Below, piece after piece: positions 6,043 through 20,479 of a DNA stretch of 38,922 nt. The stretch covers positions 1-38,922 of the forward strand of contig CACZJZ010000022.1 of the NCBI GenBank assembly GCA_902781655.1, in the 5' to 3' direction. The position numbers and the translations under genes were made by a program. The DNA comes from an uncultured Lachnospiraceae bacterium. Its GTDB lineage: Bacteria > Bacillota > Clostridia > Lachnospirales > Lachnospiraceae. The first letter of the stretch is position 1, and every line of letters begins with the position of its first letter. The notes beneath the pieces were generated by a model that had not been told where the DNA came from, did not search any database, and saw nothing but the letters and a program-made list of their open reading frames with translations.

Positions 6043-6875
6043 TTTACGATGGCCCCTTTGCGTGTGATGTCGTCAGGAATAGCGAGACTGTTCCGGGTTC
6101 CCTCCGGGATCCCGGCGAGGAAGGAGAACGCCGGATCGAGCATTCTCTCCCAAGTGTCAATATCGTGGTTTCCCTTCTGATGCCAGTAATGATACGGGAT
6201 CGCCGCCGCGTCCAGCGTCCTGCGGAAGGCAGCGACCTGTCCGGATACCGCGATATCTCCGTCCCCGCAGCCGAGGAACAGCTCCGGAATGTCCTCCCGC
6301 TCTGCCGCCGCATACGTCTTCAGGATGTCCCACGGGCCGTGCTCATAGTCCCCGCGGCTTCCGAACATGTTTCTGAACTCATCGGTCCCGAATCCGCCGC
6401 GCTCCGGATGGTCAAAGAGCTCCATCGGATCCGCCGCGGGAGAAAGCGCCGCCACTTTGGAAAAGGTATCATGATAGAGAAGGCCGTTTGCCAGAGCGCC
6501 GTATCCGCCCATGGAGATGCCGGCGAGGTAGGTATCCTCCCGGCGGTCCGAGAGTCGGAACATCTCCCTCGTCCGCTGCACCAGCTCCTCCCCCACAAAG
6601 CGGCTGTACGAGGCATTCCGCTCCGGATGATCCACATAGAAGGAATTCTGCCCGTCCGGAATCACCACCGCGAGACCTTTTCGTTCCGCCTGTTTCCGGA
6701 TACTCAGCATCGTGTAAATACTGGTGTAATCCCCGCTGTAGCCCGGCAGAAGATACACGGTGCGGTAAGGCGGCTCCGCGTCCGAGCCGAACGGGCCCTT
6801 TTCCGGAAGGAAAACTGCCGCAGAAACATTCTGTGACGTCGTCATCGACAGAAAATGAATCTCCGCAAAGGACAT
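6039..6875 (-). CDS. CE1-type esterase, tributyrin-esterase-like (esterase 1)
   Basis: A 278-residue alpha/beta hydrolase without a signal peptide, so cytosolic. The nucleophile elbow is GISMGGYGA with Ser121. The segment RTVYLLPGYSGDYTS supplies the oxyanion region, and KGNHDIDTWE near the C-terminus carries the likely catalytic His. The family splits short-chain acyl or phenolic esters from sugars and other alcohols. The start ATG at 6875 overlaps the upstream stop as TGATG and has GGTGGA just upstream. The frame is open further upstream, but that part covers the preceding gene. It is a paralogue of its upstream neighbour, with which it shares LSDRREDT followed by the Ser motif. Confidence 0.85.
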   Translation of the reverse strand: MSFAEIHFLSMTTSQNVSAAVFLPEKGPFGSDAEPPYRTVYLLPGYSGDYTSIYTMLSIRKQAERKGLAVVIPDGQNSFYVDHPERNASYSRFVGEELVQRTREMFRLSDRREDTYLAGISMGGYGALANGLLYHDTFSKVAALSPAADPMELFDHPERGGFGTDEFRNMFGSRGDYEHGPWDILKTYAAAEREDIPELFLGCGDGDIAVSGQVAAFRRTLDAAAIPYHYWHQKGNHDIDTWERMLDPAFSFLAGIPEGTRNSLAIPDDITRKGAIVK

Positions 6876-7689
6876 CAGATTCCACCGTTCCTTTCCAGCA
6901 GCCACTCCACACCGTTTCTGACATAGTGGTTCCAGAACTTCCAGTCGTGGATGCCCGGTCCCTCCTCATACTTCATATCGGCCTGATGCTGCTCCAGGAA
7001 ACCTCTCAGCTCCTGGTTGTTGGCGTAGAGCATATCCTCCGTGCCGACCGCCATATAGATCGACGGAATGTTCCGCTTTTCCTTCGTGAGTCTCTCGTAC
7101 AGCACCTCCGGATTCGCGTCCGAGGCCTCCAGCTTGTCCAGATCCCCGAACACCTCCCGGTAATACGCATAATTGCCGAGGGCTCCCTCTTTCACATCCT
7201 CCGGCTTCATCCCGGCAATCGAGTGAATGATATAGGCGGAGGACAGTGCCAGAATTCCTCCGAATGTGTCCGGATAAGCAAGCCCGGTGTGGAGCGCGCC
7301 GAAACCGCCCATCGACAGGCCGCCGATCAGCGTGTCCTCTCTCCGGTCTGAGAGGCCGAACAGCTTTCTTGTAAAGGCAACGATCTCTTCGCCTGCAAAC
7401 GCCGCAAACTGACACCCGGTCGGCTCCCGGTCCAGGTAGAAACTGTTTCGGCACTGACCATAAACACATTCAGGTTATACTCAACGGCGATATCCTCGGC
7501 GACTCCGTTGTATTCCCAGTCGTCCTCGTTTCCGGAGAAGCCGTGCAGCAGATACAGATTCTTGGCCGGCCGGTTAAAGTGCCGGTTTCCCTGCACCATT
7601 TCCTGCGGAACATCACAGGGCAGGACGTATCGGAAATTCGTCTGTCCAGCCTGAGCCAGTGAATAATAACGCATTTTTCCAGTTGCCAT
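6875..7689 (-). pseudogene. CE1-type esterase with a single-base frameshift (esterase 2)
   Basis: The N-terminal part runs from the ATG at 7689, which has GGAGGAGAGG upstream, through KNLYLLHGFSGNEDDWEYNG to NVFMVSAE. There the frame breaks. The expected reading is AENSFYLDRE, and one A missing from the run at 7446-7448 restores it. After the break, LSDRREDT, GGLSMGGFGAL with the nucleophile Ser, and the C-terminal GPGIHDWKFW with the likely catalytic His follow normally to the stop at 6875. The intact protein would be about 271 residues, cytosolic and closely related to esterase 1. A one-base change in an A run is the usual form of a sequencing error, so the gene may be intact in the organism. 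Confidence 0.8.
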
Positions 7690-7735
7690 GATCTTCCTCT
7701 CCTCCTTCACCACCCGCGTGAAAGGCTTTCAGAAA

Positions 7736-8836
7736 TTATAATCTGAAAATCTCCTGTGCAAAATCTAAGAAGCACCGCCGCCAGACATTCCAGTCATGCG
7801 TGCCAGGATAAATTTTGCGTTCCGTTTCGACGCCGCATTGTTCCAGCAGCTGATCGTCCTCCAGGAAATACCGGAGGAAGGGATCCTGATCGCCGATGCC
7901 GCGGAAAAAGATGTGAAACTGCCTCCGGAATGCTTCTCCCTGCCGGAGCACCTCCAGATGCTCGTTCCGGCTCGGCGCGTGATGCGAGGCATCCAGCTCG
8001 CCGCCGCTGATCCAATCGTGCAGAAATCCGCTGAAAATCCCGACCTCAGAGAACATCTCCGGATGTCTGCATGCAAGCATCGAAGCCTGCATAGAACCCA
8101 TGGACAGACCGGCAATGCCGCGTCTTGACTTGTCCCCGCCGGCGCGGTACCGCTGCTCCACAAACGGAATCACATCCCTCAGCAGCATCGCTTCGAACAG
8201 AAGATGATCCACCACATGGCCTTCCGGCGCAGCAGGGTCCTTTCGCTGGACCATCCCGTTATTCATGACAATCACAAATGGGACAGCCTTTCCCTCTGCA
8301 AGCAGGTTATCGAGAATCAGATTTGCTCTGCCTGCCGCCGTCCATCCGATCTCGTTCTCTCCGTGTCCGTGCTGCAGATACAATACCGGATACTGCATTT
8401 CCGGATGCGCTTCATAGCCCGGCGGCGTATAAACCATGCACCGTTCCCACTCGCCGGTCACGGAAGAGAAGAAAATTTCGCTCCGGATCACGCCGTGCGG
8501 CACATTCTCCAGGGCGCAGAACGCAGTACCGGGACCCTCGAGGTCAAAATAATTATACGGCCTGCTGTATCCATAGCCGATTGGAAGATATGGACTCAGC
8601 TGCTCCTGCCCGTCCACCAGGATCTGCACATAATAAATTCCTTCCTGAAAGGGAAGTTCCGCCTCGAAGAGCTCCTCTTCCACCTTCTGCAGTCTGATGG
8701 TTTGATCCTCAATGGTGATCTCGACCTTCTCCGCATTTTTCTCTGCCAAATGAAGATAGAATTTTCCATTCCTCCTGGTCAATACCTGCGGCTGATTTCC
8801 CGCAGGCAGGACCGGATTAAATGCCAGTGGTGTCAT
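7736..8836 (-). CDS. CE1-type esterase with N-terminal beta-sandwich domain (esterase 3)
   Basis: A 366-residue protein of two parts. Residues 1-100 look like an immunoglobulin-like or CBM48-like domain of the kind found in front of Fes and CE1 esterases (KFYLHLAEKNAEKVEI, EGIYYVQILVDG). Residues 110-366 are the alpha/beta hydrolase: YPVLYLQHGHGENEIGW, nucleophile Ser245 in GIAGLSMGSMQAS, and YPGTHDWNVW with the likely His. There is no signal peptide. The ATG at 8836 is preceded by AAGGAGAG and lies 13 bp after the stop of the hydrolase gene. An in-frame upstream start at 8881 would overlap that gene and lacks conservation. Its place in the operon suggests removal of acyl groups from an imported sugar. 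Confidence 0.85.
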   Translation of the reverse strand: MTPLAFNPVLPAGNQPQVLTRRNGKFYLHLAEKNAEKVEITIEDQTIRLQKVEEELFEAELPFQEGIYYVQILVDGQEQLSPYLPIGYGYSRPYNYFDLEGPGTAFCALENVPHGVIRSEIFFSSVTGEWERCMVYTPPGYEAHPEMQYPVLYLQHGHGENEIGWTAAGRANLILDNLLAEGKAVPFVIVMNNGMVQRKDPAAPEGHVVDHLLFEAMLLRDVIPFVEQRYRAGGDKSRRGIAGLSMGSMQASMLACRHPEMFSEVGIFSGFLHDWISGGELDASHHAPSRNEHLEVLRQGEAFRRQFHIFFRGIGDQDPFLRYFLEDDQLLEQCGVETERKIYPGTHDWNVWRRCFLDFAQEIFRL

Positions 8837-8849
8837 TGATATTCTCTCC

Positions 8850-9593
8850 TTATGCCGGATACACAATCCCGATCTCCCCATAGGATAACCGTCTTGCCAT
8901 CCCCCAGGGGCCCTCTGTCAGCTCACCGGATGCATGATTCTCCAGCAGCCGGTCACATGCACCCAGGAATTGATCCACAATCGAAACTGTCAGAGGATAG
9001 TCATGATGCCCCGGCCAGATTGTCATCTCCGGGTCCTTTCCCAGTTCCCTGCGCAGAACCAGCAGAGCCGCCTGATAAGTACGGACATCCCTGCTGCATG
9101 GAAGATTCAGCAGCACATCTCCCTTGCAGCACACATCTCCCGTAAACACCATGTGATGCGCCGGGTCCAGGAAACATCTGCAGCCCGCACTATGGCCCGG
9201 CGTCAGAAAAGACCGGATGACCCTTCCTCCCAGATCGATCGATACTGATCCATCGACCGGAATCAGTTTACTTTTCCCGTCTTCTTCCCGCAGATTCTCC
9301 GTCATTCTCCAGTTGCACTCCCAGACCGAGAGCTCTTCTCTCGACACAGAGACTGCCTGAAACTGCCGGCAGCCTCCGATATGATCAAAATGTGCGTGGG
9401 TCAGCCAGACCCTGAGAGGGAGCTTCGTCAGGGATTCCGCCAGGCCCTTCAGATCCCCTGACCCATAGCCCGTGTCAATCAGCATGGCCTCTTTATCCCC
9501 TTCCAGCAGATACATATACACCGGGCAGAGCGGAGACTCCTCGCGGATCATCCAGGTGTGCTCCCGGATTTGTTCTACCTGATATCCCATCAC
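8850..9593 (-). CDS. Metallo-beta-lactamase-fold hydrolase
   Basis: A 247-residue protein of the glyoxalase-II-like superfamily. The metal site motif THAHFDHIGG places His66, His68, Asp70 and His71. TPGHSAGC and VFTGDVCC supply further ligands, and IWPGHHDYP supplies the last His. Such enzymes open thioesters, lactones or other esters; the substrate is unknown. The ATG overlaps the stop of the Nif3-like gene by four bases and the next gene follows after 13 bp, so it is translationally embedded in the sugar operon. It may hydrolyse a product released by the esterases, such as a lactone or an acyl thioester (inference). Confidence 0.82.
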   Translation of the reverse strand: MMGYQVEQIREHTWMIREESPLCPVYMYLLEGDKEAMLIDTGYGSGDLKGLAESLTKLPLRVWLTHAHFDHIGGCRQFQAVSVSREELSVWECNWRMTENLREEDGKSKLIPVDGSVSIDLGGRVIRSFLTPGHSAGCRCFLDPAHHMVFTGDVCCKGDVLLNLPCSRDVRTYQAALLVLRRELGKDPEMTIWPGHHDYPLTVSIVDQFLGACDRLLENHASGELTEGPWGMARRLSYGEIGIVYPA

Positions 9594-10465
9594 AGTCCCT
9601 TCATCTGATAATTCCAGATATCACCCGTCGGGACAAAATGAACCGCAAGCTGCCCCCCGGTCAGATCGCGGAGCCACTCCGCGGCATATTTTGCTCCGAG
9701 CTGCTCCCAGTTAAAATGTCCGATGCGGAAGCAGACCTTATTCTCTCCGAAGGATGCCGCGTCCCGGATGTAGGACAGCACGTTCCATTCCACGATCTCG
9801 CCCGGCGCGATCGCGTCGATATGCTGCTCCTCCATCGCCCGGATGATCTCCGTGGGATAATCGTCATAGACACCGTGCTCCAGCTTTTCCGGAACGAATG
9901 CACCGGGATAGATATGCCCGACCAGCGCCAGCCTCGTGATCTCCACGTCCGGCCGGCCGATATAGCTGATCCCGTTCATGCCGATTTTATCCATAAACTC
10001 CGTGCAGAGCGCCGCCGCCGTGCGTGGCTTTGGAAATTGAAATACATAGCCGAACGGAACACTGTGGTCCTCTTTCAGATAAAACGACTCCCAGCCAAGG
10101 CCCCTGATGACCCCGGTGAAGATCGAGTCAGGGCGATGCGCATGCGCGTGATCGTGATCCCGGTACACCACGATCCCCGTCTTCTCCAGAAGCGCCCGCT
10201 TCTCCTCATATACATGGCAGGTGAAATCCGCCTTCCAGTCCGGGAAGTCCGGCGTCAGGTACGATGTCGGTTCATGCACGAAGAGCAGGTTGCACCCCAG
10301 CTCCGCCGTCTTCCGGATCACATCCACCGTGGGAACCAGTGCCGAAACAATACCGGTGCACTCCTTGTCCGGATTCCCCGCCTTGATTCCGTCGCAGCCT
10401 GCATAATCCGATCCAAGATCCGGATGATAAGCCGCGACCCGCTCCAACACCTCAGAAATTTTCAT
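9590..10465 (-). CDS. Nif3-like (DUF34) dinuclear-metal protein
   Basis: A 291-residue protein that fits the Nif3/YqfO family. The metal-binding features are NLLFVHEPTSYL, DHDHAHAHRPD and, near the C-terminus, RIGHFNWEQLG. The family binds two metal ions. Proposed roles include GTP cyclohydrolase I type activity and metabolite repair, and none is settled. The start at 10465 is chosen because GGGAGGAC lies just upstream and the family domain begins there; an open frame continues upstream but covers repeats and the next gene. It lies 167 bp after the permease gene and overlaps the next gene, which places it in a sugar operon where Nif3 proteins are not standard members. Confidence 0.75.
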   Translation of the reverse strand: MKISEVLERVAAYHPDLGSDYAGCDGIKAGNPDKECTGIVSALVPTVDVIRKTAELGCNLLFVHEPTSYLTPDFPDWKADFTCHVYEEKRALLEKTGIVVYRDHDHAHAHRPDSIFTGVIRGLGWESFYLKEDHSVPFGYVFQFPKPRTAAALCTEFMDKIGMNGISYIGRPDVEITRLALVGHIYPGAFVPEKLEHGVYDDYPTEIIRAMEEQHIDAIAPGEIVEWNVLSYIRDAASFGENKVCFRIGHFNWEQLGAKYAAEWLRDLTGGQLAVHFVPTGDIWNYQMKGL

Positions 10466-10489: not shown

Positions 10490-10651
10490 ATTCAGCCAAC
10501 CCTTCACGGCGCCGGCTGACGCTCTTGCAGCTTCCGTCTCCGGCATCACCGACTCAGCCATTCGCCGCGTCGGCTGTCTCTCTGGCCGCTTACACCTGTT
10601 GCCTGCGCGCCTTCGCCGCAGGCATTCTCCAGTCAGCCCTTCACGGCGCCG
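10490..10651. repeat. Direct repeat of the 3' end of the permease gene
   Basis: The last codons and stop region of the downstream permease gene (10624-10651) recur at 10490-10515. Both copies contain CCCTTCACGGCGCCG preceded by CAGCC or CAGTCAG, so the gap between permease and Nif3-like gene is flanked by near-identical ends. The sequence between the copies (about 110 bp) holds no gene that I can support. Confidence 0.6.
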
Positions 10652-11556
10652 ACCACAACGCCCTTGACAAAATACTTCTGTACAAACGGATAAATAATCA
10701 CAATCGGCAGAATGCCGATGACTGCCATGGACATACGGACCGCGTTGCTCGGCAGGGTGATTGCCCCGGCGCCGACGGCCACGCTCGCCGCGCCGCTCTT
10801 CAGAAACTGAATATTGTTCATGATGCGGATCAGCAGGTTCTGAATGCCGTAATACTGCGGTTTTTGAATATAATACAGCGCATTCACCCAGTCGTTCCAG
10901 TACGTGAGAGCGGTAAACAGGGAAATGGTTGCGATGGTCGGCACCGCGAGCGGCATAATGATCTTGAAGAAAATTGTCAGCTCGCCTGCTCCGTCGATCT
11001 GCGCGGCCTCGATCAGCGCGTCCGGAATGCTGTTGCTGTAATAGTTCCGCACCAGAAAGATATTGAAGGCGGTGCAGAGATAATTCGGCAGAATCAGCGC
11101 CCAGATCGTATTCTTGATATGGAAGATCTGCGTCCACATCATATAGGAAGGCACCACGCCGCCGTTGAACAGCATCGTAAAAAATACGAAGAACGCAAGC
11201 ACGTTCCGATACCGGAAATTCTTCCGGCTCATCGGGTAGGCGATCATGGCCGTAATCAGCACACTGACCACCGTTCCGACGCAGGTGACAAGAAGAGAAA
11301 TGCCATATGCCCTGAAAATGATTTTGCCCTGCTGCACCATGTAAATGTAGGCAGCCAGTGAGAATTTTGCCGGCAGGAACGAATATCCGTCCCGCAGCAG
11401 CGCTGTTTCGTCCGTGAAGGACGCGATCACGATGAGAATCAGCGGAATCAGCGCGATCGCCGCGAGAATGCCGAGCATCACCGTAGCAAAGATGCGGAAA
11501 TGGCCCGCGTCGTTGGATGCCTTCTTTATTTTGACTGCATTTTGATTCGCATTCAT
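10633..11556 (-). CDS. Sugar ABC transporter permease, YtcP/LplC type
   Basis: A 307-residue inner-membrane subunit with six hydrophobic segments. The EAA loop for contact with the ATPase is visible as EAAQIDGAGELTIFFKIIMP near residue 210. The ending FVKGVVVGAVKG is typical of the YtcP/LplC branch of carbohydrate permeases, which takes up oligosaccharides or modified sugars. It pairs with the LplB-type permease 147 bp upstream on the same transcript. No ATPase gene is present in the locus, so a shared MsmX-type ATPase encoded elsewhere is likely, as is usual for this family. Confidence 0.88.
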   Translation of the reverse strand: MNANQNAVKIKKASNDAGHFRIFATVMLGILAAIALIPLILIVIASFTDETALLRDGYSFLPAKFSLAAYIYMVQQGKIIFRAYGISLLVTCVGTVVSVLITAMIAYPMSRKNFRYRNVLAFFVFFTMLFNGGVVPSYMMWTQIFHIKNTIWALILPNYLCTAFNIFLVRNYYSNSIPDALIEAAQIDGAGELTIFFKIIMPLAVPTIATISLFTALTYWNDWVNALYYIQKPQYYGIQNLLIRIMNNIQFLKSGAASVAVGAGAITLPSNAVRMSMAVIGILPIVIIYPFVQKYFVKGVVVGAVKG

Positions 11557-11703: not shown

Positions 11704-12633
11704 TCAGAACAGGGCATTGTCCGAATCCACATGCCTGACGATCGCGTTGGCAGTGATGACAATGATGAACCCGAGAATGGACTGGAACAGGCCGGCCGCT
11801 GACGACATGCCCACATCGTTGAGCTTCATCAGTCCGCGGTAGACATAGGTATCAATCGTCTGCGTCGTCTCATAGATCGCGCCGGAATCCATGGGAACCT
11901 GATAGAACAGGCCAAAATCCGAGAAGAAGATTCTGCCGACCGCCATGAGCGTCATGATGACGACCGTAGGCTTCAGCATGGGCAGGGTGATCCGGAATAC
12001 CTGCTGCGCCTTGGTTGCGCCGTCGAGGCTTGCGGATTCATAGACAGATTTGTCGATGCCCGCGATCGCAGCAAGATAAATGATGGACATATATCCCGCG
12101 TTTTTCCACAGATAGACAAAGATCAGAATGAAGGGCCAGTACTTTTTCTCCATGTACCAAGCGACGGGAGAAGCACCGAGCGCTTTCAGGATTGTTTTAT
12201 CGACAAACCCGCTGTCAGAATTCAGGAACGCATAAACCATGTAGGCGATGATGACCCAGCTCATCAGATTCGGGAGCAGCAGGGAGGACTGGAAGAATTT
12301 TGTCCGGATCGACTCGCCCAGCGTGTTCAGCAGCACCGCGATGAAAATGGCGAGCACTGTACCCAGCACAATGAAGGCGAGATTATAGAGAAGCGTGTTT
12401 CTCGTCATGATGAAGGCATCCTTCGTCTTGAAGAGAAATTCAAAGTTCTTGAACCCGCACCAGGGGCTCTGGAAAATGCCCTTCTTATAGCTGAAGCTCT
12501 TGAACGCAATAAAGATACCGAACATCGGAATATAATTGTTGATCAGAAGATAGATCAGCCCCGGCGCCGCGATCAGAAGAAGCGGCCCGGATTTGGCATA
12601 CTTGATTTTTGCTTTTCCTTTTCTCTTTGTCAT
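11704..12633 (-). CDS. Sugar ABC transporter permease, LplB type
   Basis: A 309-residue membrane protein with six hydrophobic segments, starting MTKRKGKAKIKYAKSGPLLL. The N-terminal NNYIPMFGIFIAFKSFSY and the EAA loop ESASLDGATKAQQVFRITLP identify the LplB branch. It should form a heterodimer with the YtcP-type permease downstream. It is the first gene after a promoter with a putative tandem AraC-type site (12711-12764) and therefore heads the operon that ends with sucrose phosphorylase. The binding-protein gene lies about 500 bp upstream, beyond a terminator, which allows separate expression levels. Confidence 0.88.
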   Translation of the reverse strand: MTKRKGKAKIKYAKSGPLLLIAAPGLIYLLINNYIPMFGIFIAFKSFSYKKGIFQSPWCGFKNFEFLFKTKDAFIMTRNTLLYNLAFIVLGTVLAIFIAVLLNTLGESIRTKFFQSSLLLPNLMSWVIIAYMVYAFLNSDSGFVDKTILKALGASPVAWYMEKKYWPFILIFVYLWKNAGYMSIIYLAAIAGIDKSVYESASLDGATKAQQVFRITLPMLKPTVVIMTLMAVGRIFFSDFGLFYQVPMDSGAIYETTQTIDTYVYRGLMKLNDVGMSSAAGLFQSILGFIIVITANAIVRHVDSDNALF

Positions 12634-12710: not shown

Positions 12711-12764
12711 AGTATAGAAAATGCGGCGTCCCCTTTCTTTTAAAAACAAGCGCGGGACTTTCAA
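12711..12764 (-). promoter_or_regulatory. Promoter of the permease-esterase-phosphorylase operon with tandem activator site
   Basis: Read on the minus strand: TTGAAA (12764-12759), 12 bases, TTTTTAAAAG (12746-12737), 20 bases, TATACT (12716-12711). The -35 position has no consensus box, so activation is likely. The same arrangement with identical spacings stands before the binding-protein gene at 14894-14947. The half-sites TTGAAAG and TTAAAAG are 21 bp apart, as expected for an AraC-type regulator bound to two adjacent turns. The -10 box also sits inside the inverted repeat CTATAC-CCA-GTATAG at 12703-12717. The leader is about 70 bases. Confidence 0.65.
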
Positions 12765-12765
12765 A

Positions 12766-12826
12766 ATCGGGCTATTGAATCGGGCAGGGCAGATGAAAGC
12801 TGTCCTGCCCGATTCAATAGCCCGAT
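12766..12826. terminator. Very long perfect hairpin next to the operator
   Basis: Two arms of 27 bases (12766-12792 and 12800-12826) pair at all but one position around a 7-base loop; the 23 outer pairs are perfect. On the minus strand the stem is followed by TTTTG, so it could be a second, weak intrinsic terminator behind the binding-protein gene, or an mRNA-stabilising stem. It directly abuts the upstream half-site of the permease promoter. Confidence 0.6.
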
Positions 12827-12884
12827 CCGGAGGCTCCGCCGTTATCTCGTGCCTCACACCAGGTGATGCACAATCACCGGGAAC

Positions 12885-12929
12885 CATGATCTGCAGGCAG
12901 GCCTGCACCACAGCTTCCGGCTCGTCGGC
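12885..12929. repeat. Interspersed palindromic element, copy 1
   Basis: The core is TGCAGGCAGGCCTGCA at 12892-12907, followed by a tail that ends CTTCCGGCTCGTCGGC. Two more copies in the same orientation lie at 23137-23186 and 31818-31860. This copy sits just beyond the T tract of the binding-protein terminator. Confidence 0.6.
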
Positions 12930-12931
12930 AT

Positions 12932-12971
12932 AAAAAACAGGCCAGGTTTCTGAAAATCAGAAACCTGACCT
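12932..12971 (-). terminator. Intrinsic terminator of the binding-protein gene
   Basis: On the minus strand the arms CAGGTCAGGTTTCTGA and TCAGAAACCTGGCCTG pair around a short loop and are followed by TTTTTT. It lies about 160 bp after the stop of the binding-protein gene and should separate most of its transcript from the permease operon. Confidence 0.8.
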
Positions 12972-13130
12972 GTCCTGTCAGTCTGTATGCGGCCTTTCCG
13001 GAAGTCCGTTCTACCGATCAACCTGGGCACGCATGAAAACAGCCTGTCTCTTCATCGAACGGGGAACGCTTCAGTCTTCTTTTTCAGTCCGCTCTGCCTC
13101 CCGCTGCTCTGTACAGCCGGCGCCGATGGT

Positions 13131-14735
13131 TCATTCCGCCGTGGATGCCGCGGTGCTGTCTGCGGAGGCGGCGCCGCCGTTGCTCTGCAGCCATGCATCG
13201 AGCTGTTCCTGCTTCGCGCTCAGGATGTCGTCGTACCCTGCGTCCTTCAGTGCCTTGCGGAACTCCGGCAGCGTCTCCTTCGGATCGACAGAGCCGCAGG
13301 AAAGTCCCGGCAGATACTGCTTGATCACGTTGCTGACCGCCGTGTACTGCGTCTGTACACCGGACGGATCAAAGGAGAAGCCCATGGCCGGCGACGACGC
13401 GGCGCTGTGGTTCTGCTCATCCTCCCACTTGAGAGACTCCTCCGAGCCGGAGCCCTCGAGCGGCCACTGAATGAAGAAGTTTCCGAGCACGCCGCAGGAA
13501 AGCTGTGCGGTGTAGGAAACCGTGGACGCGTCCTGTCCCTCCGGATAGGACACCGTGCCGTCATCGTTCTTCACATAATCCTCGCCTTCAATGCCGTACA
13601 GCATGGTGTTGATGACATCCGGATCCGTGTAGGTCAGGTTCAGGAACTTCAGCGCCGCATCCGGATGCTCCGACGTGGAAGCCACAACCTGCGCAACCGC
13701 GTTGATCGAGGAGGTGTCGAGATACGCACTGCCCAGCGCGATGGCACCGACATCATAGCCGGACGGCGCGGACAGAGCCGCAGCCGTATCCTCCAGCGGA
13801 TAGCTGTAGGACGCGCTGTACGCAAAATAATTTCCGGAGGACATCAGCTCCGCCGCCGCAGAAGTAGTGGTCGCCGCATCCTGCATGATATAGCCCTGGT
13901 TGTACCAGTCACGGACAAGATCTGCGTATTTCTCAAAATCCGGCAGATCATAGTAGCTTGTGACGGTCATGTTATCGCCCTGCAGCACGCCGGTCGGGCT
14001 GGAGAAGGAGTCCCCGAGCCAGTCAATCTCCGGGATCCAGCGCGTCAGGCCGCTGTCGCCCTGCGAAACCGGTGCGAGCGGCGTCATCTCAGGATGTGCT
14101 TCCTTGACCTTGGCGAAAATCGCAGTGAGATCATCCACGGATTTTACCGAATCCATGTCAAGATTCAGCTCTTTCGCAATATCCTTGCGGTAAATCAGCA
14201 TCGGCTGCAGCGCGAACGGCTTGAGGGTCGGAATGGCATAGAGTTTTCCGTCCCTGCTGGTGGTATCGAGCCAGCCCTCTTCCATCAGTGCCTTTGTCTC
14301 CGGTGCGTCCTTGTCAATCAGGTCCGTGATGTCGTAGCACATATCGCTTGCGATATCATTGCCGAGATCGCCCAGTGTGTGGAACAGATCGATCTCCCCG
14401 TTCTGAACCGCCAGGCTGACCTGCTGCTGATAGTCCGAAATGGACATCGGCATCAGATGCACCTCAACACCGATTTTGCTGCGGGTGATCTGGTTGATCG
14501 CCTCCTCGACCGCGGAGGTATCGTCCGGCACATTGTTGAATGTGACAAACGCATAGGTGATCTCCGTGACATCTCCGTCCGCAGGTGCCGCGCTCTCAGC
14601 CGTCTCTCCGGATGCTGCGGAGGATGCCGCCGGCGACGCGGAATTCCCTTGATCCGCGGAACCGGAAGAACCGCACGCTGCAAGGGAAAGTGCCATTGCC
14701 CCTGTCAGTACAATGCTAACAAGCCTTTTCTTCAT
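13131..14735 (-). CDS. Lipoprotein sugar-binding protein of the ABC transporter
   Basis: A 534-residue extracellular solute-binding protein anchored as a lipoprotein. The signal peptide MKKRLVSIVLTGAMALSLAA is followed by the lipid-modified Cys21. A Ser/Ala linker of about 30 residues leads to the binding domain, which starts near TEITYAFVTFNN. Size and pattern match the LipO/YtcQ-type proteins that pair with LplB and YtcP permeases. The C-terminus ends in an Ala/Ser-rich tail, NGGAASADSTAASTAE, not needed for the fold. It has its own promoter, with a predicted regulator site, and its own terminator, so it can be made in excess over the permeases. The ligand cannot be read from sequence; the operon suggests a substituted oligosaccharide. 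Confidence 0.88.
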   Translation of the reverse strand: MKKRLVSIVLTGAMALSLAACGSSGSADQGNSASPAASSAASGETAESAAPADGDVTEITYAFVTFNNVPDDTSAVEEAINQITRSKIGVEVHLMPMSISDYQQQVSLAVQNGEIDLFHTLGDLGNDIASDMCYDITDLIDKDAPETKALMEEGWLDTTSRDGKLYAIPTLKPFALQPMLIYRKDIAKELNLDMDSVKSVDDLTAIFAKVKEAHPEMTPLAPVSQGDSGLTRWIPEIDWLGDSFSSPTGVLQGDNMTVTSYYDLPDFEKYADLVRDWYNQGYIMQDAATTTSAAAELMSSGNYFAYSASYSYPLEDTAAALSAPSGYDVGAIALGSAYLDTSSINAVAQVVASTSEHPDAALKFLNLTYTDPDVINTMLYGIEGEDYVKNDDGTVSYPEGQDASTVSYTAQLSCGVLGNFFIQWPLEGSGSEESLKWEDEQNHSAASSPAMGFSFDPSGVQTQYTAVSNVIKQYLPGLSCGSVDPKETLPEFRKALKDAGYDDILSAKQEQLDAWLQSNGGAASADSTAASTAE

Positions 14736-14893
14736 CGTTGCCTCCCTGATTCTGCAGCAGACTGCCTGCTGCTCTCATGACTATACCCGGTGCCGCACAC
14801 ACTGCGGCGCCCGCTCGGGAAATGCCAGAATCAATTTTCCCGCAGAGGGCCTGTGCATGACAAATGAATGTCTCTTTCAGGCCTTCTGCTTTG

Positions 14894-14947
14894 ATTATAG
14901 AGAGCGGCTGTCCCGGCCTCTTTTAAAAACGGGAGATTCCTTTTCAA
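14894..14947 (-). promoter_or_regulatory. Promoter of the binding-protein gene with tandem activator site
   Basis: Read on the minus strand: TTGAAA (14947-14942), 12 bases, TTTTTAAAAG (14929-14920), 20 bases, TATAAT (14899-14894). The spacings equal those at 12711-12764. The -10 box is perfect while the -35 position (AAGAGG) is poor, which fits dependence on an activator. The leader is about 150 bases. The remaining gap to the response-regulator gene holds a tandem repeat array. Confidence 0.68.
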
Positions 14948-14960
14948 TTTTGAGAGGTTA

Positions 14961-15124
14961 CAGCGTGATTTCCTTCCGATGCCCGGTTATGATATTCATT
15001 CGGCGATATTTCCTTCCAATGCCCGGTTATGATATTCATTCGGCGATATTTCCTTCCAACGCCCGATTATGATATTCATTCGGTGATATTTCCTGCCGAT
15101 GCCTGGTTATGATATTCATTCGGC
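14961..15124. repeat. 40-bp tandem repeat array over the end of the response-regulator gene
   Basis: About 4.1 copies of a 40-bp unit occur, marked by GATATTCATT at 14991, 15031, 15071 and 15111. Copies differ by a few bases (for example GCCCGGTTAT, GCCCGATTAT, GCCTGGTTAT), so the array is old enough to have diverged and is not an assembly stutter. The copy at the right-hand end codes for the last residues of the regulator, and its stop codon falls in the next copy. Confidence 0.85.
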
Positions 15125-16839
15125 GTCATGCCGGCCGCCTTGCGGAACACCGTGGAAAAATAGGAAAAATTGTCGAATCCCACCTCCTGTGCGACATCAC
15201 TGATCCTGACGTCCCGTCTCGCAAGCAATTCCTTCGCCACGCGAATGCGGTAATCGCTCAGATACTGCTTCAGGCTGATGCCGGTCTCCTTCTTGAACAG
15301 CTTTGCCATATATTCCGGCGCCAGATACATGCTCGCGGCGATTTCCGTCCGGCTGATGTTTTCGCGGTAGTGGTCATGAATGAACGCCTTCGCCCGGTTC
15401 ACCACGGAATCCGACTGGCGGATCTGCGTCACACTGTCAATTGTCTGCGTGATCAGATAAATCTGCCACCGCATCATATCCATCACCGAATCCGTTGCAC
15501 GCCGCTCCAGCGTCTCCGCCGCTTCATTGGCAAAGAGCCTGGTTGCCTGGATCTGACAGCTGTACAGATAGACATACACTATCTGCAGCAGCTCCTGGCG
15601 GATTTTGCTGAGGGCCGCCGCATCCAGTTTCTTTTCAGCCGCAAGACTCTCCATGCTGAATTTAAGAAGGTTGAGCAGCTCCCTTGTCCGCCCTCCGGCG
15701 AGCAGCTCCTTTATCCGCTCCTGATTCAAAATATGTCCGTCTGCCATGTGGAGTACGATCTCATCGTCCTCCTCGAAGCAATGCCCCTTGGAGGCCACAT
15801 TGTTCCGATCCAGCTCCTCCAGATGCCGGACCGTCTGCGCCGCCTCGGTCACCGCGCCCGGTTTCCCGAGATATACCGTCAGCGTGCAGCCCAGATAATT
15901 GTGTGCAAAATCTATGAGCTTCTGCGCCTTGTTATGGAGCGCGCTGTCTCCCTGCGAAACAGCGTAATCGCTGCCGCTGCGCCTCCCGTCCGGCGCCTGG
16001 TCTCGCAGTGCGCTGTCTCCCTGCGGGCCGGCGTAGCCGCTGCTGCCCCGGCCCGGCTCCGCGGATGCGGTGGAGACAGCGGATGACAGCGCCGCCGTGT
16101 CCTCCGCATCCAGAATCACCGTGATCAGCAGGATGTCCTTTCTCCGGATGCTGACCACGCGGCCCGTCTCTGTCCGGCCTGTCAGCATCTCCGCGGAAAG
16201 CTTCCCCACGGCATATTCGAAGGTTCCCTCTCCATCCTTTCCCCACAGTGCCGGATCCGCATCCGACAGAGAGGTGCTGACCAGCACCGGCCGATACTGC
16301 GCATCGCTCCGGACCGGAATGCGCCGATGCTGTATTTCCGCCTCCGCCACCTCCGGTTTTGACGGAATATAGCCGAGAATCAGGTCGGACCAGAAGGAAG
16401 CCTCGACATAGGACAGATTGCCCGAAAACCACTTCTCGTACTTCTGCCCGACCTTGTACTGCTCCTCGTGGCGGATTTTCCGCACGGCTGCTGCCAGCTC
16501 CGCTTCCATCCGTTCCGCCTGAAACGGCTTGACCACGTATCCTGATGCCCGGTATTGAATTGCCGTCTGGGCAAAATCGAAGCGCTCATGGTTGGTCAGG
16601 AAGATGAACTGGGTTTCCAGGTTCCGGTCCCGCACCCACTTCAGCAGATCAAGCCCGCTCCCCATCGGCATTTCGATATCGCAGACCGCCAGATCTATAT
16701 CCGTGCTCTGAAAGATTTGCTCCGCCTCCTGGATGTTATAGGCCCGGAGCACCCGGTCAATATGAAATTTGCTCCAGTGGACCTTCTCGACAATCACATC
16801 CACGGTGGATCTGTCGTCGTCTACCACAATTGCGTTCAT
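15076..16839 (-). CDS. YesN-type response regulator with AraC DNA-binding domain
   Basis: A 587-residue regulator. Residues 1-120 form the receiver domain, with VVDDD near the start, phospho-acceptor Asp54 in AVCDIEMP and a Lys in GYVVKPFQ. A long middle region follows, and residues about 480-580 hold two AraC-type helix-turn-helix motifs (ISRTEIAASMYLAPEYMAKL and ISDVAQEVGFDNFSYFSTVF). Its partner kinase is 25 bp upstream. It is the likely activator of the two matching promoters at 12711-12764 and 14894-14947 (inference). Residues of the middle region contain an insert with an in-frame 69-bp repeat (YAGPQGDSAL / YAVSQGDSAL). The gene end lies in a 40-bp tandem array. Confidence 0.88.
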   Translation of the reverse strand: MNAIVVDDDRSTVDVIVEKVHWSKFHIDRVLRAYNIQEAEQIFQSTDIDLAVCDIEMPMGSGLDLLKWVRDRNLETQFIFLTNHERFDFAQTAIQYRASGYVVKPFQAERMEAELAAAVRKIRHEEQYKVGQKYEKWFSGNLSYVEASFWSDLILGYIPSKPEVAEAEIQHRRIPVRSDAQYRPVLVSTSLSDADPALWGKDGEGTFEYAVGKLSAEMLTGRTETGRVVSIRRKDILLITVILDAEDTAALSSAVSTASAEPGRGSSGYAGPQGDSALRDQAPDGRRSGSDYAVSQGDSALHNKAQKLIDFAHNYLGCTLTVYLGKPGAVTEAAQTVRHLEELDRNNVASKGHCFEEDDEIVLHMADGHILNQERIKELLAGGRTRELLNLLKFSMESLAAEKKLDAAALSKIRQELLQIVYVYLYSCQIQATRLFANEAAETLERRATDSVMDMMRWQIYLITQTIDSVTQIRQSDSVVNRAKAFIHDHYRENISRTEIAASMYLAPEYMAKLFKKETGISLKQYLSDYRIRVAKELLARRDVRISDVAQEVGFDNFSYFSTVFRKAAGMTPNEYHNQASAGNITE

Positions 16840-16864: not shown

Positions 16865-18721
16865 TCACAATTTCCACACCGTGCTCTGCCGCTTTGCCCG
16901 TTTGGGCAGCCAGATATCCACCCTGCTGCCGTGCGGCTCCTTATTGCTGAAGGAAATCAGGTCATCTCTCCGATACATCAGGGACAGTGTTTTCCTGAGA
17001 TTCCAGAGTCCCAGGCCATGTCCGTCCGGTCTGACTGTAACCGTTCCTTCCTGCATCTGCTGCAGAAACTCCTGCGGATAGCCTTCTCCGTCATCCTCCG
17101 TCACGATATGGCACATATTTTGCCCGTCATGCATCTCCTCCCGCGCTGAGATCAGCACAGAGGTCAGCCTGTCAATCGACACGGCATGCTTGTAGATGTT
17201 CTCAACCAGGGTGTGAATCAGAAGCTGCGGGACCGGATACTCGGCCACCTGATCGTCCACGTCGATAAAATCAAAGACATTGCCCGGATAAAGGAAATCC
17301 TGCATCGCGATATAATCCTTCACATGCGCAATCTCCTCGGACAGCGGCACCGTGTGCAGGCCTCCCTTGAAGAGGTAGCGGATATTGCTCGACAGCCGCT
17401 CGATATAATTCCGGATATCTTCATTCCGGTTCTGATAGGACATGGAATGGATGGTGGTGAGCGCGTTCAGGAAAAAGTGCGGGCGTATCTGCAGCTGCAC
17501 ATACTTCAGCGTGGCCTCATCGAACTGAATCCGCTCCTCATACGATTTCAGCCGCAGATTCTCAATCGTGTCCATCATCTGATTGAAGCTGGTATTGATT
17601 TTCCGGAATTCTACCGACTTCGCCATATCCGGCAGACGCAGATTCTTCTCCCCGTTTTCGATTTTGCCCATCGCGGTGAGCAGCTCCTCCATCGGGCGAT
17701 AAACAGCGCGCCGCAGATACCAGGCAATCGCTGAAATCATCAGAATCGCCGTCACGATCAGGCCCAGAATGAGGGCCTGCCTGAGCTGCCAGCTGCCCAT
17801 CACTTCCTGACGGGGCATCACAGTGTAAAGCCGAAAAGCCCCCTTCCGGGTCCTGGTCTGGTACAGATAGAAGCGGCTGTCCCCGGACCAGGCCGCGGTC
17901 TCCAGCGGGACAGAACCAAGCTCCGTTTCGGAAACCAGACTTTCACCGGATGAGCTCTGCCAGAGCAGATGTCCGTTCTGATCCGCCAGGACTGACGCCT
18001 GTCCGTCCGGCCCGGTGAGCACATCCGCACAGGCCGAGACAGGAATCAGCGCGCCGATGATCCTTTCTCTGTTGGCATAAATTCTGGCAAGATACCCTTT
18101 TCCGCCGATGGTCACCCAGTGCCACCTGGGGATCGATTCCGACGCCTCTTTTTCTGCGGAGTTCTGGATATAAGAGCGTATGGCTTCCCCATCCGCATAC
18201 GATATCGTACTGCCTGTCGTATACTCTGAAAGAAACAGCTCCGAGCTCCGGTCATAGATCAGGAGAAAACTGGTGTCAAAAGAATCGGATACCGTGCGCA
18301 TTTCCGCGAGGACCTTCTGGGCATAGACGTTTCGTCTGGTGATATTCCGGGACGCCAGTCCCTGTATCTCCTCCGCATCCCGCAGCAGCGTCGCCAGCGC
18401 TTCCTCGTTGGATTTGAACATCTGATTCAGGTCGCGCACCTGAATTTCCGCGGCCTGCCGGAGCGCCAGACCCGCGTTCCGCTCCAGTGTGTCCTGCGTA
18501 TCCCGGAAGAGAACGATAAGGATGCCCGCCAGAAGAATAAAATAAAAGAGAAGGAGAACCGTGACCGTCCGGATGAACGAATTCCCGGTTTCCTTCCTAC
18601 CGTTTATCTGTCCCCTGCCCTTTTCCTGTCCCTGATTCCTAATGGTCTGGCCGTCCGAAAGCTGATTTCCCTCCTTCGGATGTCCCGGCCGTTCCGGGCA
18701 TCTGTGAAATAATCCGGTCAC
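16865..18721 (-). CDS. YesM-type sensor histidine kinase
   Basis: A 618-residue membrane kinase. Transmembrane segments lie at about 50-72 and 316-336 and flank an extracellular Cache-like sensor domain. A HAMP region follows. The His_kinase motif IRPHFFLNALTTIHSM has phospho-acceptor His415, and the ATPase domain shows ENIYKHA, DDGEGYP and GHGLGLWNL. The GTG start at 18721 is chosen because GGAGGAGA lies directly upstream and the open sequence before it covers the dusB end. It should sense an extracellular sugar, possibly through the binding protein, and phosphorylate the neighbouring regulator. The first 45 residues are a polar tail of unknown use. Only 29 bp separate it from dusB, so it may be read from the housekeeping transcript. 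Confidence 0.87.
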   Translation of the reverse strand: MTGLFHRCPERPGHPKEGNQLSDGQTIRNQGQEKGRGQINGRKETGNSFIRTVTVLLLFYFILLAGILIVLFRDTQDTLERNAGLALRQAAEIQVRDLNQMFKSNEEALATLLRDAEEIQGLASRNITRRNVYAQKVLAEMRTVSDSFDTSFLLIYDRSSELFLSEYTTGSTISYADGEAIRSYIQNSAEKEASESIPRWHWVTIGGKGYLARIYANRERIIGALIPVSACADVLTGPDGQASVLADQNGHLLWQSSSGESLVSETELGSVPLETAAWSGDSRFYLYQTRTRKGAFRLYTVMPRQEVMGSWQLRQALILGLIVTAILMISAIAWYLRRAVYRPMEELLTAMGKIENGEKNLRLPDMAKSVEFRKINTSFNQMMDTIENLRLKSYEERIQFDEATLKYVQLQIRPHFFLNALTTIHSMSYQNRNEDIRNYIERLSSNIRYLFKGGLHTVPLSEEIAHVKDYIAMQDFLYPGNVFDFIDVDDQVAEYPVPQLLIHTLVENIYKHAVSIDRLTSVLISAREEMHDGQNMCHIVTEDDGEGYPQEFLQQMQEGTVTVRPDGHGLGLWNLRKTLSLMYRRDDLISFSNKEPHGSRVDIWLPKRAKRQSTVWKL

Positions 18722-18750
18722 AGTCTCCTCCCTGTCCTGTCTTATCTTAT

Positions 18751-19860
18751 CTATTTCTCCGGCATCTCCCAGTCCAGCAGCTCCGCCAGCTCCTGCCTGG
18801 TGGTCACCTGCATCACCCTGCTGCGGATCCGGCTGGCGCCCGGAAATCCGGCGATATACCAGGCGACATGCTTGCGCATCTCCTGCATCACCACCTGCTC
18901 GGGCCCATACCGGAGGCACAGATCGGTCTGCCGCAAAATCATGGCCTTCCGCTCCTGCGGCGTCACCTGCGAGACGGTGAATGGCACCCGGCCATTTCCT
19001 GATGAAAAAACGCCTTCCTCCGCCCGGATCCCTTCCGCAGAGGCTCCGTCCCCCACGCTGCCGGCGCTCTCTCCAGCCGGCAATCTCCTTAAATACTCCA
19101 GAATCTCACGGAAAATCCACGGATTTCCCTCCGCGGCGCGCCCGACCAGCACCGCATCGCAGCCGGTCTCCTGAAACATCCGGAGCGCGGAGGGACCGTC
19201 CACGATATCTCCGTTTCCAAAGACCGGAATGGTCAGCGCTTGCTTTACCGCCGCGATGCCGGGCAGATCCGCTCTTCCCGAATACATCTGCGGCCTGGTG
19301 CGGCCATGCACCGCCACCGCCGAGGCGCCGCCGGCCTCCGCAGCCAATGCGCAGTCCACCGCATTCCGGTGCTCCTCATCAAAGCCCAGACGGATTTTGA
19401 CCGTGACCGGGTGCGGCGTGTGGGCGACTGCGGCGCGCACGAGCTGTTCAATGAGATGCGGATCCTTCATCAGCGCGGACCCGTCGCCGTTGCCCGTGAT
19501 TTTGGGGACGGGGCAGCCCATGTTGATGTCAAGAACGTCAAAATCCAGCCCGTCTGCAATCTCTCCGGAGTTGATCATATCCAGTGCCCGCGCCAGCACC
19601 TCCGGTTCATGGGTGAACAGCTGAAGAGACACGGGATGCTCGTCCGGGTGTGTCCGGAGCAGACGCGCCGTGGCGCGGTTATGGTAGGTGATCGCTTTCG
19701 CGCTCACCATTTCCATGGCGACAAGGCCCGCTCCCTGCTCGTGGCAGAGCAGCCGGAACGGCAGATCGGAGACGCCCGCCATCGGCGCAAGAAAGACCCT
19801 GTTCGGAATGGTCACCGACCGATTCGCGCCGGTAAGAGTGAGTGGTGAAGTATATGGCAT
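18751..19860 (-). CDS. dusB: tRNA-dihydrouridine synthase
   Basis: A 369-residue flavoenzyme that reduces uridine to dihydrouridine in the tRNA D-loop, using NADPH. The FMN-binding TIM barrel is clear: NRVFLAPMAGVSDLPFR near the start, DINMGCPVPKITGNGDGS with the catalytic Cys, KIRLGF, VAVHGRTRPQMYSG, and VFGNGDI with VLVGRAAEGNPWIF. Between the barrel and the helical C-terminal domain (RYGPEQVVMQEMRKH) there is an insert of about 30 residues, AGSVGDGASAEG and following, which most relatives lack. I chose the ATG at 19860 because the conserved part begins soon after; a start at 19902 (MMKATEGR) inside the previous gene is also possible. Confidence 0.86.
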   Translation of the reverse strand: MPYTSPLTLTGANRSVTIPNRVFLAPMAGVSDLPFRLLCHEQGAGLVAMEMVSAKAITYHNRATARLLRTHPDEHPVSLQLFTHEPEVLARALDMINSGEIADGLDFDVLDINMGCPVPKITGNGDGSALMKDPHLIEQLVRAAVAHTPHPVTVKIRLGFDEEHRNAVDCALAAEAGGASAVAVHGRTRPQMYSGRADLPGIAAVKQALTIPVFGNGDIVDGPSALRMFQETGCDAVLVGRAAEGNPWIFREILEYLRRLPAGESAGSVGDGASAEGIRAEEGVFSSGNGRVPFTVSQVTPQERKAMILRQTDLCLRYGPEQVVMQEMRKHVAWYIAGFPGASRIRSRVMQVTTRQELAELLDWEMPEK

Positions 19861-19873
19861 CGCTGTCCCAGGA

Positions 19874-20479
19874 TTACTCCTGCCCTCCGTCGCTTTCATC
19901 ATCCCATCCGGAATCCAGCACGTCGCCGGGATTCTGATGCAGAATTTTGATCTTATAATATGCGGAGAGTGACTGAAACAGTTCCTGCTTCCTGCGCCGG
20001 ATCTCCCTGATCATGAGGCCGCAGCTGATCTCGTCGTACAGCAGATCGCCCTCCTCCGCCTGCGTCTCCATCTCGACATCGCCCCCGGGCGTAAACACGA
20101 TCGTGAATATGCCGCCGACCTCCTCCGTGAACAGCACACACAAAATATGCAGCTCTTCCTTCACGTTCTCCGGCAGCCCGTCGAACGTCCGGTTGAAATA
20201 ATATTTCTGATCATACTTGCTGGCACCGCAGAGCACCACCTTGATGTGCTCGCGCTGTCCGTCGGCCGCAAAGCCATCCCGCGCGGTCAAATCTTCCCCA
20301 GCGCCGGGCATCCCGCATACACTGTCTGCCGCGTATCCGGCCTGCGGTTCGCTGGACGTACCGCAGGCTTCCTGTCCTGTTTTGTCAGACGCAGCGCCAG
20401 TGCTGATATCATCGCCTGCCGCAGCAGCGTTTCTGATCCCGCCTGCCGCAGCAGCGTTGCTCTGCCTCTCTTCTGTCAT
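19874..20479 (-). CDS. Small conserved protein of unknown function (DUF6145-like)
   Basis: A 201-residue protein with no signal peptide. Residues about 80-180 resemble a family of small uncharacterised proteins found beside birA and dusB in Lachnospiraceae, which I recall as DUF6145: VVLCGASKYDQKYYFN, LPENVKEELHILCVLFTEEV and LLYDEISCGLMIREI. The first 75 residues are low in complexity, with a short repeat RNAAAAGDD / SNAAAAGGI and scattered Cys, and look like an added tail. The ATG overlaps the birA stop by ATGA. Function is unknown. The gene order suggests coupled translation with the biotin ligase. Confidence 0.6.
   Translation of the reverse strand: MTEERQSNAAAAGGIRNAAAAGDDISTGAASDKTGQEACGTSSEPQAGYAADSVCGMPGAGEDLTARDGFAADGQREHIKVVLCGASKYDQKYYFNRTFDGLPENVKEELHILCVLFTEEVGGIFTIVFTPGGDVEMETQAEEGDLLYDEISCGLMIREIRRRKQELFQSLSAYYKIKILHQNPGDVLDSGWDDESDGGQE

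Follow-up and report, generated by a model that had tools for sequence, protein, structure and literature searches.

A predicted tandem half-site operator shared by the binding-protein and permease promoters of a Lachnospiraceae sugar-transport locus

How could a sugar-binding protein and a membrane channel be switched on together from separate promoters? The question is raised by a 38,922-nt stretch of DNA (hereafter the window: contig CACZJZ010000022.1, positions 1-38,922) from the 2.76-Mb genome assembly of an uncultured Lachnospiraceae bacterium. On its minus strand, genes for a sensor kinase, a response regulator, a solute-binding protein, permease 1, permease 2, a NIF3-like protein, and esterases plus other enzymes follow one another in that order. 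A first-pass annotation, made from the letters alone, had proposed that two minus-strand promoters in this run share one spaced operator design and that the AraC-type response regulator is the natural binder of both. One of the two sites lies before the binding-protein gene, the other between that gene and the permeases. Our comparisons indicate that both are very probably operators of the neighboring regulator, which is of the YesN type and would act by class II activation, with transcription restarted behind a terminator.

Two promoters with one design

The pattern TTGAAA-N12-TTTTTAAAAG has exactly two matches in the window (minus strand, 12764-12737 and 14947-14920) and none in 100 dinucleotide-preserving shuffles of it. 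The shorter form TTGAAA-N15-TTAAAAG occurs at these two places only in the 2.76-Mb assembly, and its reversed control does not occur at all; a looser genome search, allowing two or fewer mismatches, gave 15 sites (2 exact, 1 with one mismatch, and 12 with two) and 4 for the reversed control. This confirms that the two promoters share a design, far above chance. The further details of the first-pass annotation are borne out as well: TATA(A/C)T follows each site after 20 nt (TATACT at 12716-12711, TATAAT at 14899-14894), the half-sites lie 21 bp apart from start to start, and neither promoter has a good -35 box, the best match at a spacing of 16-18 nt being 3/6 in the permease promoter and 2/6 in the binding-protein promoter. 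The half-sites themselves, given there as TTGAAA(A/G)G and TTAAAAG, are correctly placed but drawn too short; they extend to the consensus CTYnnnnTTRAAAR, whose second base is C, not T, in two of the four half-sites of the window. The elements are as follows.

14941..14954, minus strand: distal half-site of the binding-protein operator, CTCAAAATTGAAAA, identical in the close relative G006
14918..14933, minus strand: proximal half-site of the binding-protein operator, over the -35 position, CCCGTTTTTAAAAGAG (consensus stretch 14933-14920)
14894..14899, minus strand: -10 hexamer TATAAT of the binding-protein promoter, by sequence
12758..12771, minus strand: distal half-site of the permease operator, CCCGATTTTGAAAG, overlapping an arm of the inverted repeat at 12766-12826
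12735..12750, minus strand: proximal half-site of the permease operator, CTTGTTTTTAAAAGAA (consensus stretch 12750-12737)
12711..12716, minus strand: -10 hexamer TATACT of the permease promoter, by sequence and promoter comparison

Conservation before the binding-protein gene

A scan of named genomes that started from four aligned regulator sequences yielded 35 loci, 17 of which, mostly Butyrivibrio, encode the orthologous system (binding protein 69-83% identical). Together with the window, a family genome locus (L070), and the close relative G006 (locus L109, binding protein 99% identical to that of the window), these make 20 orthologous systems; L019, L028, and L020 are from the same genomes as L007, L008, and L009 and were counted once. 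The operator stands ahead of the binding-protein gene in all 20, and in 19 it is followed by a -10 hexamer at 20 or 21 nt, the exception being G006. Conservation before the orthologous genes of relatives, on which the first-pass annotation had staked its proposal, was thus found at 20 of 20 binding-protein genes and at 13 of the 19 assessable permease operons. A regulator orthologue, or its end, adjoins the binding-protein gene in every one of the 20 systems.

As an independent test of the operator, we built a matrix from 13 Butyrivibrio binding-protein operators, using the half-site columns only and leaving out the -10. In the window, it ranks the two sites first and second (41.5 and 29.4 bits), followed by a match at 13.3; the best score in 20 shuffles is 8.5. 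Among the held-out loci, the best matches in all five others are at the binding-protein promoter, and also at the permease promoter in the four where the stretch includes it (L019, 39.1 and 31.8; L028, 41.1 and 38.2; L018, 37.2 and 23.7; L070, 45.2 and 18.2; L020, 31.3 at the binding-protein promoter, the contig ending before the permeases). Permease sites at L010, L015, and L021 were likewise outside the training set and score 40.0-42.6.

The site also extends to more divergent systems. Binding proteins at E ≤ 1e-150 were found in 8 of 397 family genomes, namely the own genome, that of L070, and six others (50-59% identical). In each of these six, the site beats 500 of 500 shuffles, with regulators that are 25-37% identical (in the five systems with a regulator on the stretch). 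By eye, a -10-like hexamer follows after 20 nt in five of the six, L072 being without one. In one of them (L074), the kinase gene runs divergently from the binding-protein gene on the opposite strand, yet the site is retained.

Restriction of the pattern to this system

The suggestion that the full genome and its relatives be searched for the spaced motif leads to the same place: matches lie beside the kinase-regulator pair of this sugar-transport system in 11 of 12 cases in relatives' genomes, 8 of 8 in same-genus genomes, and 3 of 4 in the family. Ten of the 12 relatives' genomes contain the exact pattern, with 12 matches overall, of which 11 are at these promoters and one is elsewhere (control 0); the latter, L057 in genome G066, is coding sequence by appearance. 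Among 61 same-genus genomes, a wider pattern that tolerated at most one mismatch had eight matches, in four genomes (control 0). G039, the source of L019, also has the system, and its diverged sites were missed by the pattern and found by the matrix. The 397 family genomes gave four matches in three genomes, two in the own genome, one in that of L070, and one in G355 (L101, one mismatch, unexplained), against a reversed control with one match in each of four genomes; the genomes of the six divergent systems had no pattern match. Because the matches are nearly restricted to this system across genomes, the site is, by its distribution, a local operator and not a general promoter feature. Pattern and matrix searches found no copy of the motif ahead of the kinase and regulator genes in the window; the two-component system is therefore probably not autoregulated through it.

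Architecture of the promoters

For comparison across loci we used 27 promoters chosen by the motif, 16 of them, from Butyrivibrio, through a pattern that already fixed the -10 as TATAAT or TATACT. Owing to this choice, the spacings, the half-site conservation, and the -10 letters given below are circular in part; G006 and L091-L094 lie outside this set. Half-site columns carry 1.6 bits, compared with 0.33 for the spacer, the proximal half-site is 20 or 21 nt from the -10, and the best -35 match is 3/6 or less in all 27. The layout expected for class II activation, in which the proximal half-site covers the -35 position and a good -35 box is lacking, is thus found throughout, save at the binding-protein promoter of G006, which has no -10. 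With the -10 hexamer set at -12 to -7, the proximal and distal half-sites span about -46 to -31 and about -67 to -54, respectively. In 17 of the 27 promoters we compared 13 direct offsets, and repeat identity peaks at 21 (0.57, next 0.45), which makes the half-sites a tandem; three positions are the same in 17 of 17 sites, columns 0 and 21 being C and column 34 being G.

The -10 hexamers differ between the two units. TATAAT is found in none of eight permease promoters and in 15 of 19 binding-protein promoters, 13 of these 15 being from Butyrivibrio (outside that genus, 2 of 6). In the eight loci with both promoters, the binding-protein -10 is nearer to consensus in five and has the same number of matches in three; by eye, none of the permease hexamers of G006 and L091-L094 is TATAAT either. 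A weaker permease -10 would fit a lower level of permease. The proposal that binding protein and permeases are produced at different levels thus finds only indirect support, in the -10 letters and in a terminator-like hairpin between the units.

We also considered a hairpin embedded in the operator as a general feature and rejected it, as a stem around the proximal half-site has p > 0.05 at 32 of 37 sites. It reaches p ≤ 0.05 at the other five, four of which (the L019 permease site, L075, L092, and L094) have at least four T in the next eight bases. In these four (L019 8500-8555, L075 1349-1410, L092 82-140, and L094 near 2523), the proximal half-site is inside a terminator-like hairpin whose T-rich tail is in or just before the -10 region. 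Such promoters (4 of 37 sites) might be insulated from read-through.

The second operator, the permeases, and a terminator-like hairpin

A second operator precedes permease 1 in the window, L109, L070, L019, L028, L018, L010, L015, L021, and L091-L094 (the 13 of 19 noted above; one further gap, that of L014, is masked), and is missing from L011, L012, L016, L017, L022, and L025. L091-L094 come from the genomes of L013, L020, L026, and L027, whose permease promoters were previously unseen and which we searched with permease 1. The four orthologues recovered are 80-84% identical, and all four have the operator (matrix scores 39.7, 43.2, 32.0, and 43.2). There is no binding-protein gene upstream of the permeases at L094 and L091; in the L091 genome, a Butyrivibrio (L027 9721-17608), the permease operon lies about 11 kb beyond the binding-protein gene on the same contig, with an operator of its own. 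A second ATP-binding cassette (ABC) system occupies the space between them. At four paralogous permeases (54-58% identical; 4 of 12 matches examined), the operator was not found, the best upstream score being 8.9. Given that 4 of 4 orthologues carry the site, two of them away from the binding-protein gene, an operator copy, judged from these loci, accompanies the permease unit even when that unit is located elsewhere.

In the window, two inverted repeats lie between the binding-protein gene and the permeases.

12932..12973, minus strand: intrinsic-terminator-like hairpin with T-run behind the binding-protein gene (12937-12973, then six T)
12766..12826, minus strand: 27-nt inverted repeat abutting the permease operator, then TTTT; absent from G006

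The first, a G+C-rich hairpin followed by a T-run at 12937-12973, is by its sequence a putative intrinsic terminator; none of 25 shuffles of the gap reaches it, and it is kept in G006. The T-run of the second is part of the distal half-site of the permease operator, and an 18-nt stretch of its arm has no other occurrence in the genome.

Across loci, a hairpin with a T-rich tail is found in 10 of the 10 cases where a second operator follows the binding-protein gene. For each of these hairpins, none of 25 shuffles of the gap in which it lies gave one as stable, and longer gaps alone are therefore no explanation. Eight of the ten come from a first hairpin search, which covered the first 400 nt of each gap (the whole 3.5-kb gap for L018), and L109 and L093 were added later. 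The L019 hairpin overlaps the operator itself; that of L018, located 33 nt past the stop codon, was also recovered from the first 150 nt of its gap alone. In the first search, the hairpin was present in 8 of 8 loci with a second operator versus 1 of 12 without (L017), although the latter number covers the partly masked L014 and the divergent L071-L075, and in three of these five the gap (1 to 19 nt, or an overlap) leaves no room for a hairpin. The shuffle test (25 per gap) left out L014, L022, and the divergent loci. In the six orthologous systems that lack a second operator, the gap is 4-105 nt long.

On balance, we lean toward a relay design with the operator as its movable module, in which one regulator serves separate binding-protein and permease promoters with terminator-like insulation of the first unit, and the second operator is kept where a terminator or a separate location cuts the permeases off and lost where they are co-transcribed. 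If true, such a design would set the excess of binding protein by promoter architecture instead of RNA decay.

Proposed mechanism and alternatives

The comparisons show the shared sequence layout, that it is conserved and nearly confined to this system, and that it goes together with a terminator-like hairpin; the binder, the direction of its effect, control by phosphorylation, termination, and the expression ratio are inferred. The sensor kinase would switch on the regulator by phosphorylation, and the phosphorylated regulator would bind, on a single helical face, both direct half-sites (CTYnnnnTTRAAAR, 21 bp apart). In place of the missing -35 box, the proximal half-site would then help RNA polymerase to a good -10 hexamer. 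From one operator copy the binding-protein gene would be transcribed, ending at the terminator-like hairpin, and from the second copy, with its weaker -10, the permease operon would be restarted behind that hairpin, such that one signal induces both units, the binding protein more than the permeases. A 21-bp tandem placed where the -35 match is poor agrees with class II activation of the AraC type, and activation by this regulator is, from the sequence comparisons, the simplest account.

Three other accounts deserve consideration. A different regulator encoded elsewhere, AraC-type or palindrome-binding, might bind the sites, with the neighboring response regulator a bystander. The genome does encode five other PF06580 kinases, and an inverted alignment of the half-sites reaches 50% identity, but the sites co-occur with this kinase-regulator pair across genomes, in each of the 17 named orthologous loci they start at most 35 nt from the regulator stop codon or overlap it (the distance is about 120 nt in the window), and the L074 site is kept though the kinase is divergent on the other strand; we consider this quite improbable, although no systematic search for other regulator genes co-occurring with the site was made. 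If anything less probable is that A+T-rich UP elements or curved DNA aid RNA polymerase at promoters that have no -35 box, with no specific regulator involved. The A+T-richness of TTTTTAAAAG and the absence of a good -35 box would suit such an account, as would the location of TTTTTAAAAG at what we take to be the usual UP-element position. General promoter aid would be expected to recur, whereas the exact pattern occurs twice in the own genome and, among 61 same-genus genomes, only at this system; the three invariant G+C positions named above (17 of 17 sites) and the constant 21-bp spacing also speak against it. The least probable of the three holds that the second operator is a passive, functionless duplicate of the first promoter and that the permeases are expressed by read-through. 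In its favor, the permease operator scores below the binding-protein operator in the window (29.4 vs. 41.5) and in the other seven loci of the matrix test that have both, though with a matrix trained on binding-protein operators. Against it, 13 of the 19 assessable systems retain the second operator while their spacers differ, a copy also occurs at permeases separated from the binding-protein gene, and terminator-like hairpins stand in the gap.

Several observations weigh against operator function and the role proposed for the regulator. G006, the closest relative, lacks the approximately 85 nt that hold the -10 of the binding-protein promoter, although the operator is intact letter for letter (L109 425-480) and its permease promoter is intact; this may reflect a defective promoter or a fault in the assembly. 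At offset 21 the half-sites agree at only 57%, compared with the 50% of the inverted alignment (17 sites). L017 has a stable hairpin with the tail TATATATG and yet no second operator. In addition, the second-operator state changes about three times on the binding-protein tree, at least two of them via well-supported branches, and the association of operator and terminator therefore rests on few events. Finally, more distant binding proteins, some of them from Lachnospiraceae, gave no significant score in any of 15 upstream stretches. These stretches are from Neobacillus, Paenibacillus, L029-L034 (L031-L033 being titled Lachnospiraceae or Lachnoclostridium), and phylum genomes; L087 and L090, from the eight loci of one search, were left out. 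It should be noted that at least five of them (the second of L024, L029, L086, L088, and L089) are weak controls because they are not directly behind a regulator gene. At L024, TTTAAAGAG is seen by eye about 21 nt before a TATAAT, with a score that 74 of 500 shuffles reach. Overall, the proposed interpretation stands up in the sequence tests that could be run, with the exception of one promoter (G006) and one gap (L017).

Relation to known systems

Escherichia coli AraC binds araI1-I2, two direct half-sites that are 21 bp apart, the proximal one over the -35 position, and we take the half-site positions in the window to be nearly those of the araI2/araI1 layout. AraC binds arabinose directly, whereas the system in the window has a receiver domain and a sensor kinase.

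In Caldicellulosiruptor bescii, AraC-type two-component regulators (AviRS, MosSQ, BxgRS, and others) are described with tandem-repeat operators, which in three of five systems have large spacers and lie upstream of promoter elements; the regulators were inferred to be activators, and two conserved tandem-repeat sites are stated for BxgRS (PMC8579813). As in the window, a histidine kinase and an AraC-type response regulator are encoded beside CUT1 sugar transporter genes, although the organisms differ and the likeness is one of description, not letter by letter; the passages on these systems make no mention of a terminator beside a second operator copy (PMC8579813). In Ruminiclostridium cellulolyticum, CuaDSR has an AraC/XylS-type response regulator, encoded just upstream of the binding-protein and permease genes like that of the window, which activates the adjacent CuaABC operon in an E. 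coli reporter, the regulator unit being reported as constitutive (PMC5663094). CuaABC differs in being a single inducible operon with a cellobiose phosphorylase, and the words motif, consensus, and direct repeat are absent from the main text as available (PMC5663094). XydS/R of Clostridium cellulolyticum resembles our system in that one AraC-type response regulator has two target promoters, supported by gel shifts with a truncated regulator; it differs in its predicted -35 boxes and, in the sections concerned, in having several candidate repeats from which a consensus site was not identified (PMC3572039). Both CuaR and XydR are described as activating neighboring or remote sugar genes (PMC5663094, PMC3572039).

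Our search of the open-access literature, outside which most subscription journals lie, found no report of this motif or locus. We thus regard the predicted operator as well founded and new, the design as already known in kind, and the pairing of a second operator with a putative terminator as the most interesting part. The result is a sharp predicted motif that a group of YesN-type regulators from Lachnospiraceae (Butyrivibrio and its kin) would bind; for such regulators we found few sites fixed in the literature. Targets in other genomes can be predicted with it, as succeeded here for the permease operons of four genomes, and the locus suggests how binding protein and permeases could stay under one signal yet be transcribed separately.

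Genes of the locus and further observations

15076..16839, minus strand: YesN-type response regulator (receiver and AraC-type helix-turn-helix; Pfam PF00072, PF12833, PF00165), the proposed binder
16865..18919, minus strand: YesM-type sensor kinase (HAMP, PF06580 His_kinase, HATPase), by domain search
13131..14735, minus strand: solute-binding protein (SBP_bac_1 and DUF3502), by domain search
11704..12633, minus strand: ABC permease 1, by domain search
10633..11556, minus strand: ABC permease 2

The first-pass reading of 15076-16839 as an AraC-type response regulator agrees with the domains found, all above cut-off: PF00072 at 4-114, PF12833 at 501-578, and PF00165 at 543-576. An N-terminal receiver with a C-terminal AraC-type double helix-turn-helix makes it a YesN-type regulator. 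The receiver is intact, with D7, D8, D9, D54, and K104 invariant in an alignment of four orthologues; we take these to be the acidic pocket (D7-D9), the phospho-acceptor aspartate, and the lysine of such domains. The best solved-structure matches of the DNA-binding domain are 6swi ("two-component response regulator") and 2k9s (AraC).

The domains of the kinase likewise place it in the YesM type. At this end of the gene (18580-18919), the listed GTG start makes it overlap the dihydrouridine synthase gene at 18751-19902. Uncut relatives mostly align from residue 76-114 (L018 from 164), and the true start is therefore probably about 75-115 codons further in.

Downstream from the permeases, 6039-10462 encodes CE1-like esterases and a NIF3/DUF34 protein; of the 15 stretches compared, several of which are incomplete, 14 contain a relative of the NIF3 protein and 11 one of the 288-aa esterase. 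These neighbors hint at an esterified oligosaccharide as the substrate. A sucrose phosphorylase (TIGR03852, 4603-6042) closes the gene run and, as it was found in only one of 11 relatives' genomes, is probably a local addition; for the same reason, an acyl-sucrose substrate, which this enzyme together with the esterases had brought to mind, is unsupported. The 3' end of the regulator gene and the sequence beyond it (14963-15122) contain about four copies of a 40-bp unit, and the copies in G006 look more diverged.

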